Shown: one piece after another, positions 3,932 to 15,981 of the stretch
Layout: every line of letters begins with the position of its first letter
Numbering within the stretch: position 1 is the stretch's first letter
Origin: Actinomycetota bacterium
GTDB lineage: Bacteria > Actinomycetota > Actinomycetes > Nanopelagicales > Nanopelagicaceae
Length of the DNA: 52,893 nucleotides
NCBI GenBank assembly: GCA_026393075.1
Contig: JAPLAW010000020.1
Span: forward strand, 1-52,893
Direction: 5' to 3'
Position numbers and translations under genes: made by a program
Notes under the pieces: generated by a model
Told to the model about the DNA's origin: nothing
The model's database searches: none
Seen by the model: the letters and a program-made list of their open reading frames with translations, nothing else

Positions 3932-4261
3932 TTAATCGTCATCTTCTTCGTCATCATCGTCACGAGAAGCAGTTGGCATGGTTATTGCGTTACTTGACTG
4001 CGTTTGAGCTGGGCTAGTCGCAGCTGGAGAATCTTGGGTTAAGTTCAGGGTTTCGGCAGCGACGGCTGAGTTATCGTCATGAGTCAGTAGGGCAAATCCA
4101 GCACCCATCGGAATTACCAGAATGCCTGCCAAAATAAAGGTGAGGCTGCGTAATGGTGCAGACTTCTTATTCTTTAGTGGGCGATTTACTGGCTGATCGT
4201 TTTCAGCTAGTTCGAACCATTCGGGCTTCTGATTGTTTTCCATTTCCAGAAAATAACTCAT
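3932..4261 (-). CDS. Small single-pass membrane protein with acidic tail
   Basis: 109 residues, no family recognised. A charged N-terminal half (about 1-35) is followed by one hydrophobic segment (about 38-62), then a Ser/Thr/Pro/Gln-rich stretch, and the protein ends in nine residues that are all Asp or Glu. Basic residues (K-N-K-K) just before the membrane segment suggest the N-terminus is inside and the acidic tail outside. A second ATG seven codons in could be the true start. It fills exactly the space between dacB and ctaB. Function unknown; a cell-envelope or ion-binding tail is only a guess. Confidence 0.6.
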   Translation of the reverse strand: MSYFLEMENNQKPEWFELAENDQPVNRPLKNKKSAPLRSLTFILAGILVIPMGAGFALLTHDDNSAVAAETLNLTQDSPAATSPAQTQSSNAITMPTASRDDDDEEDDD

Positions 4262-11057: not shown

Positions 11058-13103
11058 ATGACTGAAGAACTTAAAAAGGAAAAGAAAAAGAAAGTAACCA
11101 AGACGGTTACTAAACGAGGCGATAAGAAGCCAGCCACTAAAGCTGGTCGAATTTTCCGCGGCCCGCTGTTCTGGATTGTCTTTGCAATTATTGCCGTTTC
11201 AGTTTTCGGTCAGATCTCGGGCGCAGGTAGCGCTTACACAAAGGTCAATACTTCCCAAATTCTCGACGCGATTGCGCAGTCTGAAGTAAAGAGCGCAACT
11301 GTTGTAGATAAAAGCCAAATAATTCGGGTCGAACTGAAGCCTGGTCGTACTATCAATGGCGCTTCTAAAGTCGAGGCTTCTTACGTCGTGCGCCAAGAGC
11401 CAACAATTGTTGATGCTTTAAGCGCTAATCCACCGTTAAATGGCTGGAATATCGAAGTCCCTAAGACGCCACTGATCCTAAGTTTCTTATTCTCGATAGC
11501 ACCAATTCTAATTATTGGATTGCTCTTCTTCTTTATGCTCAGCCAGTCACAAGGTGGAAATAAAGTATTTAGTTTTGGTAAATCACGTGCAAAGTTACAA
11601 AGTGATGAAGTACCAAAAACAACTTTTGCTGATGTAGCTGGCGCTGATGAAGCAATTTCAGAATTGCATGAGATTAAAGATTTCTTAGCTAACTCAGCTA
11701 AGTACGCCGAACTTGGTGCCAAGATTCCAAAAGGTGTTTTGCTTTATGGCCCACCAGGAACCGGCAAAACTTTATTAGCACGCGCAGTTGCCGGCGAAGC
11801 GGGCGTACCGTTCTATTCAATCTCAGGTTCTGACTTTGTAGAAATGTTTGTCGGTGTTGGCGCAGCGCGAGTGCGAGATTTGTTCACTCAGGCTAAAGCA
11901 AATGCACCAGCGATTATTTTCGTTGACGAAATCGATGCCGTAGGCCGCCAACGCGGAACCGGTATGGGTGGCGGTCACGATGAACGTGAACAAACACTTA
12001 ACCAACTCTTAGTCGAGATGGATGGCTTCGAAGCTAATGGTCAAGTAATTTTGATCGCAGCTACTAACCGCCCTGATGTTCTAGACCCAGCACTATTGCG
12101 TCCAGGTCGATTTGATCGCCAAATAGCCGTTGATCGTCCTGACCTCAAAGGTCGCGAAGCAATTTTGCAAGTACATTCAAAAGGTAAGCCAATCGCTAAA
12201 GATTTAACGCTACTGGAGTATGCGCGTCGAACTCCTGGATTTACTGGAGCCGATTTAGCAAATGTGCTGAACGAAGCAGCGCTACTGGCTGCTCGTGAGC
12301 AGAAAAAAGAGATTGGTAATCACGAACTCGATGAAGCTATCGACCGTGTAATGGCTGGCCCACAGCGTAAATCACGCTTAATGTCTGATTCAGAGCGCTT
12401 AGTTACGGCTTATCACGAGGCTGGGCACGCACTTGTTGCGCACGCGTTGCCACACACTGATCCAGTTCACAAAGTCACGATCATGCCGCGCGGTCGTGCG
12501 CTTGGTTACACCATGGTTTTACCTGATGACGATAAGTATTCAACTACTCGTAATCAATTACTTGATCAATTGGCATATTCACTTGGTGGACGCGCAGCCG
12601 AAGAACTTATCTTCCATGATCCAACAACTGGCGCTTCGAATGACATTGAAAAAGCCACCGCGCTCGCAAAAGCAATGGTCACTCAATACGGAATGACTGA
12701 AGCGATTGGTGCGATCAAACTTGGCACCGATGGTTCCGAACCATTTATGGGCCGTAGCTATGGACACGAACGTGACTACTCTGAAAAAGTAGCCGGAATT
12801 ATTGATGCCGAAGTTCGTAAGTTGATTGAAAATGCTCATCAAGAAGCATTCGATATTCTCGTTGCCAATCGCAAAACTCTCGATGCCATGGTTCTTGAAC
12901 TACTTGATCGCGAAACCATCAATAAAGATGACATCGCAATAATCTTTAAGCGAGTTAAATCTTGGGCAGAGCGACCAGCCTGGACTGGATCAATTACTCG
13001 CATTCCTTCAGATATCCCACCGGTAGAAGTTCCGGCGAGAGCCAAGGTCGCAGAAGTTGCCGAAGCCAAGAAGCCGCGCGCTAGAAAGAAATCTAGTGAG
13101 TGA
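11058..13103 (+). CDS. ftsH: ATP-dependent zinc metalloprotease FtsH
   Basis: 681 residues from the ATG at 11058; a longer in-frame start lies inside hpt and is rejected. After a Lys-rich N-terminus come membrane helix 1 (about 37-52), an extracellular part, membrane helix 2 (about 139-161), then the AAA domain with Walker A G231-P-P-G-T-G-K-T, Walker B I-I-F-V-D-E-I-D (286-293) and R-P-G-R-F-D-R-Q (348-355). The protease zinc site is H453-E-A-G-H457 with D529 as third ligand. FtsH degrades misfolded membrane and some soluble regulatory proteins. A GAGG lies just before the start, overlapping the hpt stop. The gene overlaps folE by 8 bases. Confidence 0.96.
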
Positions 13104-13707
13104 AATAAATTCAATCTCGATGCAAGAGGGTGATGGCCGCGCCAAGCAGCCATACGATGCAGCACGCGCCGAGGCAGCAGTTCGCGAACTCCTTCTTGCG
13201 TTAGGTGAAAATCCTGAACGCGATGGATTGAAAGATACGCCAGCTCGAGTAGCACGTGCGATGGCTGAAAACTATGCCGGGCTTTACCAATCTCCAGAAG
13301 ATGTCCTAACCACAACTTTTGATATTGGTCATGAAGAATTAGTGATTATTAGGGATATTGACCTATTTTCACAGTGCGAGCATCACTTGACCCCTTTCCA
13401 CGGGGTTGCTCACGTTGGCTATATTCCAAATGGAAAAATTACTGGGTTATCTAAAATCGCTCGCTTAGTAGATGTTTTTGCCAAGCGTCCACAAGTGCAA
13501 GAGCGCATGACTTCACAAATTGCAGATGCCATGATGGAAATTCTGAAACCAATGGGCGTAATCGTAATTATTGATTGCGAGCACTTATGTATGTCGATGC
13601 GTGGGGTACGTAAGTCGGAGGCCCGCACAATTACCAGTGCAGTGCGCGGCGTATTGCGCGATCCGGCTACTCGTGCTGAAGCGATGTCACTAATTACAGC
13701 TCGGTAG
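13096..13707 (+). CDS. folE: GTP cyclohydrolase I
   Basis: 203 residues from a GTG that overlaps the ftsH stop. Zinc ligands C94 and H97 in Q-C-E-H-H and C165 in E-H-L-C-M-S are in place, as are G-L-S-K and Q-E-R-M-T. It converts GTP to 7,8-dihydroneopterin triphosphate, the first step of folate synthesis. An ATG eight codons downstream (13120) is an alternative start. It begins the folE-folP-folB-folK series. Confidence 0.94.
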
Positions 13708-13714
13708 ATAAACC

Positions 13715-14464
13715 ATGTTGGTAATGGGAATTCTTAATGCCACACCAGATTCCTTTGCCGATGGTGGCGAACATTTCACTTATCCCGATGCAGTTGATCA
13801 CGGTTTAAAACTAATTGCTGAAGGTGCCGACATTATTGATGTGGGCGGTGAATCAACGCGTCCGGGTGCGGAACGAGTTTCACCCGCCGAAGAAGAACGT
13901 AGAGTTATAAATGTTATTTCAAAATTAGTTGATGCTGGCAAACCAATAAGTATCGACACCATGCGCGCATCAACAGCGCGGGCTGCAGTTATTGCAGGCG
14001 CTTCAATAATCAATGATGTCAGCGGTGGGCTGGCAGACGCCGCGATGTTAGATACCGCCGCCGAGCTGAAGGTTCCATATATTGCAATGCATTGGCGGGG
14101 CCACTCTAAAGAGATGAATAATTTGGCGGTTTACACAAACCTGGTTGATGAGGTAATTGCGGAATTGAATTTGAGAATTGAGGCAGCGCTTTCAGCAGGT
14201 GTGAGTAAATCAAATTTAATTATTGATCCAGGAATTGGCTTTGCGAAGCAGCCGGCTGATAACTGGGCAATAATCGAGGAAATCCAGCGATTTGTAGCCC
14301 TCGGATACCCGGTACTAGTTGGCGCATCACGTAAACGATTCTTAGGTGGCGATGATCCAACCGCGCGCGAAGCGGCAACGGTTGCGCTAACCAAGCAACT
14401 TAGCCAAAGCGGTATTTGGGCAGTTAGAGTTCATGGAGTAGCAGCTAACAAGGCGGTCTTGTAA
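13715..14464 (+). CDS. folP: Dihydropteroate synthase
   Basis: 249 residues. M-G-I-L-N-A-T-P-D-S-F (4-14), G-G-E-S-T-R-P-G (about 43-50), I-N-D-V-S-G-G, A-S-R-K-R-F-L-G and the closing R-V-H-G are the pterin- and pABA-binding motifs of FolP. It joins pABA to the pterin diphosphate. The protein begins almost at the first strand motif, about 15-20 residues shorter at the N-terminus than most homologues. The stop codon TAA shares its last base with the folB start. Confidence 0.93.
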   Translation: MLVMGILNATPDSFADGGEHFTYPDAVDHGLKLIAEGADIIDVGGESTRPGAERVSPAEEERRVINVISKLVDAGKPISIDTMRASTARAAVIAGASIINDVSGGLADAAMLDTAAELKVPYIAMHWRGHSKEMNNLAVYTNLVDEVIAELNLRIEAALSAGVSKSNLIIDPGIGFAKQPADNWAIIEEIQRFVALGYPVLVGASRKRFLGGDDPTAREAATVALTKQLSQSGIWAVRVHGVAANKAVL

Positions 14465-14768
14465 TGAATGATTCAATTCGCATCAATGGCATTAAGGGCT
14501 TCGGCTATCACGGCGTATTTGCGGAGGAAACTAAGAATGGCCAAGAGTTCCTCGTTGTGTCGACTACGGCGCTATCTGTGATTTAGTTGTTGCTGCCATA
14601 ACTGGCACACCTTATAAATTGATTGAGAAGTTAGCTGGCGTGATTGCTGATCAAATTTTGGCAACTGCGAGTTTGGTCGAAATCGCGCTAGTTACAGTTC
14701 ACAAACCAAGTGCACCAGTTAACGCGGTCACCAGCGACATTAATGTGATGGTTATTCGCACTCGATGA
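14464..14768 (+). pseudogene. folB: Dihydroneopterin aldolase gene broken by an internal deletion
   Basis: Two pieces of FolB sit in different frames. The first, ATG 14464 to a stop at 14584-14586, encodes 40 residues; its first 33 or so are FolB-like (I-N-G-I-K-G-F-G-Y-H-G-V-F-A, then G-Q-E-F-L-V). The second, in another frame from about 14559 to the stop at 14766-14768, gives V-D-Y-G-A-I-C-D-L through V-T-V-H-K-P and V-M-V-I-R-T-R. The roughly 20-25 residues normally between these parts are missing, and the loss is not a multiple of three (the absent length must be 1 modulo 3). Both ends keep perfect gene junctions with folP and folK. Either a recent gene loss or an assembly error. Confidence 0.85.
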
Positions 14769-15214
14769 AAGCCGTAGTTTCGCTAGGTGCCAATATCGGA
14801 GATCCCAAGGCAAATTTAGATTTAGCAGTCGCGCTTTTACGTGAAGCAACCGATGTAATTGCAGTTTCTGGTTATCTGCAAACAAAACCAGTTGGTGGGC
14901 CAGAGCAACCCGATTATCTAAATGCTATTGCAATTGTCGAATCAGACTTGCCAGCTAAAGATTTGTTAGCACTTTTAAATGGTATTGAAACTGCGATGGG
15001 TCGCACTCGCGAAATTCAGTGGGGGCCACGAGTAATTGATTTAGATCTAATTCAATATGGCGGATTATTGGTTAGTGATGAGAAATTGACCTTGCCTCAC
15101 CCACGAGCTCACGAGCGTCGCTTTGTTTTAGCACCCTGGTTTGAGATTGAGCCCGAGGCAATCCTGCTCACACACGGCCGGATTTCGGATCTACTAAATA
15201 CTGATTTAGAATAA
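14765..15214 (+). CDS. folK: 6-hydroxymethyl-7,8-dihydropterin pyrophosphokinase
   Basis: 149 residues. S-L-G-A-N-I-G-D at the start, then P-D-Y-L-N-A, and the signature G-P-R-V-I-D-L-D-L-I (about 90-99) with the two magnesium aspartates, and L-P-H-P-R-A-H-E-R-R-F-V, are those of HPPK. It transfers pyrophosphate from ATP to the pterin, just before FolP. The ATG overlaps the folB stop by 4 bases, so translation would have been coupled to the now-broken folB; how well it is expressed without that coupling is open. Confidence 0.93.
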   Translation: MKAVVSLGANIGDPKANLDLAVALLREATDVIAVSGYLQTKPVGGPEQPDYLNAIAIVESDLPAKDLLALLNGIETAMGRTREIQWGPRVIDLDLIQYGGLLVSDEKLTLPHPRAHERRFVLAPWFEIEPEAILLTHGRISDLLNTDLE

Positions 15215-15255: not shown

Positions 15256-15981
15256 ATGACCGTACTAGTTCCGACAATGGGCGCCCTTCATAAGGGGCAC
15301 CAAGCGTTGATTAAGCGTGCGCGGGAACTAGATAAAGAGGTAGTTGTAAGTATTTTTGTTAATCCTCTGCAGTTTGCTGACGCCGCTGATCTAGAAAAAT
15401 ATCCGCGTACGCCAGAGACCGATATCCAAATTGCAACTTTGGCAGGTGCCACGCAAGTTTGGTTTCCAAATTATGAAGAAATTTATCCGAACGAGCCAGT
15501 TCAGATATCAGCTGGCGCAGTAGGCGATCTCTATGAAGGTGCATCACGGCCGGGCCACTTTGCCGGTGTCCTAACTGTGGTTAATCGGTTATTTGAAATT
15601 GTTAAACCGAGTGCGGCTGTTTTCGGCGAGAAAGATTTTCAACAGTTGTGGCTGATTAAAGACCACTTTAAAAAGATTGAAATTGCGGCGGTCCCAACGG
15701 TTCGCGAATTTGATGGTTTAGCTTTATCTTCACGAAACGTTCGGCTAACTGAATCAGATCGAATAGCGGCGCTAATTATTTCTAAAGCTCTAAAAGAACC
15801 AGCTCGAATGCACGAAATCTTGGCAACTGAGCCGGCCTTCAAATTAGATTACGCCGAAGTAATTGACGAGAAAACTTTTCAAAAAGCTAGCGCAACCACT
15901 CAAAACAAGCGGGCCATCATCGCGGGTTGGGTAAATGGGGTTCGATTGCTAGATAATGCAGTTGTGGAAACTAACTCATGA
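15256..15981 (+). CDS. panC: Pantothenate synthetase
   Basis: 241 residues against about 280 in most PanC. V-P-T-M-G-A-L-H-K-G-H (5-15), I-F-V-N-P-L-Q-F, the Y-P-R-T loop, G-A-S-R-P-G-H-F-A-G-V, F-G-E-K-D-F-Q-Q-L and L-S-S-R-N are all present, so the ATP, pantoate and beta-alanine sites look complete. The N-terminal 20 or so residues before the first strand are absent: the frame upstream is closed by a stop with no start codon between. A GGAG lies 7 bases before the ATG. Part of a C-terminal helical region is also short. It condenses pantoate with beta-alanine. Confidence 0.9.
   Translation: MTVLVPTMGALHKGHQALIKRARELDKEVVVSIFVNPLQFADAADLEKYPRTPETDIQIATLAGATQVWFPNYEEIYPNEPVQISAGAVGDLYEGASRPGHFAGVLTVVNRLFEIVKPSAAVFGEKDFQQLWLIKDHFKKIEIAAVPTVREFDGLALSSRNVRLTESDRIAALIISKALKEPARMHEILATEPAFKLDYAEVIDEKTFQKASATTQNKRAIIAGWVNGVRLLDNAVVETNS

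Follow-up and report, generated by a model that had tools for sequence, protein, structure and literature searches.

An apparently split folB in an actinobacterial draft genome most probably reflects bases dropped during assembly

The break in folB described here is most probably an assembly artefact (a probability of roughly 93%), which would have arisen when the flanks of a short unassembled stretch were abutted. The organism itself very probably possesses an ordinary, intact folB in a folE-folP-folB-folK cluster and uses the usual route to the folate pterin. This interpretation is favoured because the gap in folB is one of many blunt losses that occur across the genome and, with a single exception, always leave the same draft shorter.

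The window, i.e. the whole stretch of 52,893 nucleotides that was analysed, represents the entire contig C34 of the draft genome G000, a bin of 70 contigs and 1.42 Mb with an estimated completeness of 94% and an estimated contamination of 2%. Its GC content is near 45%, the genomes of the group are small, and the close relatives are metagenome-assembled actinobacterial genomes. Together with the sources of these relatives, genome size and GC content point to a putative freshwater acI-type actinobacterium of the order Nanopelagicales. A search of a plasmid collection yielded no more than short and distant matches. The following features of the folate region are relevant:

13057..13707, + strand: folE, GTP cyclohydrolase I, intact (PF01227, E 7e-73)
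13715..14464, + strand: folP, dihydropteroate synthase, intact (PF00809, E 6e-80)
14464..14557, + strand: folB, 5' part, codons 1 to about 31 (PF02152 profile positions 1-28, E 5e-6; alignment with six relatives)
14557..14558, + strand: folB junction, blunt, 58 bases absent, no microhomology (alignment with six close relatives)
14558..14768, + strand: folB, 3' part, read in a different frame and ending with the stop codon that overlaps folK (PF02152 profile positions 47-111, E 6e-14)
14765..15214, + strand: folK, HPPK, intact (PF01288, E 6e-38)
15256..15981, + strand: panC, pantoate-beta-alanine ligase, intact (PF02569, E 2e-78)

The true start of folE is probably located downstream of the start of the listed open reading frame. 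A preceding sequence-only reading had described folE, folP and folK as intact and folB as two halves in different frames between 14464 and 14768; the profile matches bear out both statements. The 5' part lies in frame 1, the frame of the ATG overlapping the stop codon of folP, and the match of the 3' part is covered by an open frame at 14553-14765. A full-length PF02152 domain in a single frame is therefore not present in the window assembly, which holds two pieces in differing frames. The overlaps of folB with folP and with folK are both preserved, as had been noted before. The split gene is not a product of chance, since the two pieces follow one another within a single conserved domain and the synteny is conserved as well.

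In all six close relatives examined, folB is open over 120 codons and located between folP and folK, so that the split gene of the window is orthologous to an intact folB at the same syntenic place. The alignment with these relatives revealed a single clean gap of 58 bases after window base 14557, within the interval of 14554-14561 that had been proposed for the junction. As this length is not divisible by three, folB appears split. The predicted length of 1 modulo 3 was correct: the relatives carry at this site an extra segment of just the kind (58 bases) that had been named beforehand as a refutation, should reads of the window genome show it. The estimate of 20-25 missing codons, in contrast, was slightly too high, since 58 bases correspond to 19.3 codons. 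Two public records of close relatives (L065 and L068) are titled Bifidobacterium breve, yet they group with the small-genome actinobacterial bins, and these titles look wrong.

It can practically be discounted that both folB pieces are functional as they stand, either by a programmed change of frame or as two separately made halves. Sequence conservation does persist in both pieces, but every possible reading lacks about 19 residues that belong to the fold (profile positions 29-46), the 3' frame has no start codon upstream of the conserved VDYG motif, and the arrangement occurs in none of the relatives listed.

The pieces themselves show no signs of decay. Changes found only in the window amount to three synonymous codons and one replacement in 101 codons, and these codon changes gave no indication that selection on the remnants has relaxed or that they have decayed further. 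No other gene of the window is split, in keeping with the earlier remark that no other decay is visible: folB alone is truly split among the 34 and 37 genes that are comparable with two long sister contigs. Other genes of the window that had been flagged as split were ruled out, being due to a shadow open reading frame, an over-extended start or a variable C-terminus. Compared with the sister bin G147, a fast-changing reading frame on the minus strand (3932-4261) lacks 318 bp, a length divisible by three; this difference is probably natural variation, though it may conceivably be another dropout.

The main comparison, made both by gene and by base, set about 864 kb of the 1.42 Mb of G000 against the sister genome G141 (1,245 kb) and yielded an alignment of 556 kb. 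Within it, indels shorter than 54 bp were balanced (G000 shorter at 327 places and longer at 350). Indels of at least 54 bp were one-sided, with G000 shorter at 20 places and longer at only one (two-sided binomial, about 2e-5 by our own arithmetic). The 20 losses, of which the folB gap is one, range from 54 to 249 bp. They amount to roughly one loss per 28 kb aligned in the G000 draft, many of them within genes. Among the relatives themselves, no comparable junction was found near the folB locus in 129 kb of aligned DNA.

Nearly all of the 20 losses fall inside open reading frames of G141, and nine of them are out of frame. The genes affected are unrelated, so that the same defect recurs in one direction across the draft; they comprise ilvC (ketol-acid reductoisomerase), a gyrB-type paralogue (twice), a PhoH-like and a GldE/CorC-like gene, menG (demethylmenaquinone methyltransferase), HflX and gcvP (glycine dehydrogenase). 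The 19 losses other than folB are distributed over contigs C8, C14, C15, C20, C26, C28, C30, C31, C39, C40, C42 and C46. A broken essential gyrase subunit was considered as a decisive argument for an artefact and was dropped, because C41 carries an intact gyrB, which makes the split gene of C15 a second paralogue of the gyrB type. For eleven of the 20 losses the nearest contig end is less than 1.7 kb away, compared to 2.6 expected, and none of 20,000 random draws reached 11. The folB junction itself is located in the middle of its contig, 14.6 kb from the nearer end.

The 20 lost segments were joined end to end and queried against four further relatives and the window genome. Sixteen segments were clearly present in one or more of these sister genomes, and another two were found there in part, whereas the window genome gave a match to a single segment. 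Most of the 20 segments are not insertions in G141. A few of the losses may be natural; two of them are situated in a poorly conserved stretch on C31, one segment of an MFS transporter was found in G141 only, and one segment is the one that is matched elsewhere in the window genome.

At 16 of the 20 junctions, including folB, no bases are shared with the lost segment. Replication slippage is disfavoured, since most of the junctions lack microhomology, and the absence of shared bases also argues against overlap joins. It fits scaffold gaps that were left unfilled or stretches of low coverage that were omitted. Wherever 54-249 bases remained unassembled, the assembly would thus have joined the two flanks directly, probably because scaffold gaps were closed without filler or because low-coverage stretches were left out. 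An otherwise ordinary folB would in this way have lost 58 bases from the draft at 14557/14558.

A related explanation is that the bin represents a mixed population and that the path of the assembler skips a variable segment, so that the sequence shown occurs in no single cell. The estimated contamination of 2% would be compatible with this, and the sister bin G147 carries two diverged copies of folP-folB-folK on contigs C3 and C17 (L067, L064), which suggests a mixed-strain bin. However, a join based on overlap should leave a shared stretch, and the folB junction has none; moreover, a search of G000 turned up the 58 missing bases on none of its other contigs. A mixed population is accordingly a highly improbable source of the junction; it is a variant of the artefact, and the biological conclusion is identical.

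It could also be considered that a real and recent deletion of 58 bases inactivated folB in the strain or in a fraction of the population, the pterin or folate then being supplied by neighbours. The gap is exact and isolated within the window, the genome has neither a second FolB nor a PTPS, and a dependence on vitamins is discussed for streamlined freshwater actinobacteria (PMC7527133). Nevertheless, such a deletion is quite improbable, because the gap resembles blunt losses that recur in many unrelated conserved genes of the same draft and cluster at contig ends, and because FolB is so widely retained in the order. The intact folE, folP and folK and the undecayed pieces of folB also speak against it, although the absence of decay is equally expected under a very recent loss. 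It would be surprising if a living lineage gathered many blunt losses of one size range in conserved genes and near contig ends, largely irrespective of the reading frame, while small indels remain balanced. Such a pattern is what an assembly would produce if it joined the flanks of short gaps that had stayed unassembled. The sequence-only reading had left the choice between a recent event and an artefact; the approximately 20 blunt losses strongly favour the latter and make the former doubtful.

FolB matches above the curated cut-off were obtained in 260 of the 296 genomes of the order, and in 106 of the 108 genomes with a completeness of at least 90% and a contamination of at most 5%. Two order members, G207 and G097 (96% and 90% complete by estimate), showed zero FolB matches. 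A recurrent loss of folB in the order was rejected, as just two of the 108 near-complete genomes are without FolB. Among the genomes listed, only the window genome exhibits two partial FolB pieces. It is very unlikely that the species as a whole lost FolB very recently, unlike nearly all of the about 296 genomes of the order, and now depends on pterin or folate from neighbours or on an aldolase not yet known.

A search for an alternative aldolase had been recommended. The PF02152 profile search detected no second FolB in the window genome, and PF01242 gave no PTPS match there at E values up to 10. The replacement of FolB by PTPS-III was reported by Pribat et al. 2009, as cited in PMC5041015, and would be the bypass to expect if folB were truly lost; the window genome differs in having no match to the PTPS family. 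The earlier statement that a cell with this deletion could not form the folate pterin by the usual route is therefore, within the reach of these searches, sound as a conditional, but its premise is very probably false.

In comparison to the known FolB (PF02152) of folE-folP-folB-folK clusters, the window is alike in synteny, in the overlaps with folP and folK and in both ends of the domain, and differs in the 58 bases that are gone and the frame that is broken in the draft. It is documented that false pseudogenes can arise from errors of assembly (Cooley and Wright 2024, PMC11017572). The present case agrees with these in showing an apparent frameshift in a gene that is whole in near relatives, together with many similar defects of the draft, and it differs in the kind of defect, here the blunt loss of 54-249 bases at a time.

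The split folB is therefore biologically ordinary, and its practical value lies in caution. Calls of gene loss or auxotrophy from G000 and from similarly made drafts are untrustworthy without the reads, and G000 needs to be reassembled ahead of any claims of gene loss. A one-sided surplus of indels of at least 50 bases in comparison to a sister genome offers a simple test for such drafts.

Beside folB, the standard dihydrofolate reductase family (PF00186) was matched neither by the window genome nor by any of 36 genomes of its genus, while the window genome does encode ThyX, the flavin-dependent thymidylate synthase. Dihydrofolate reductase was taken as a marker for folate synthesis in PMC7527133, and this marker could misjudge folate synthesis in the genus of the window.
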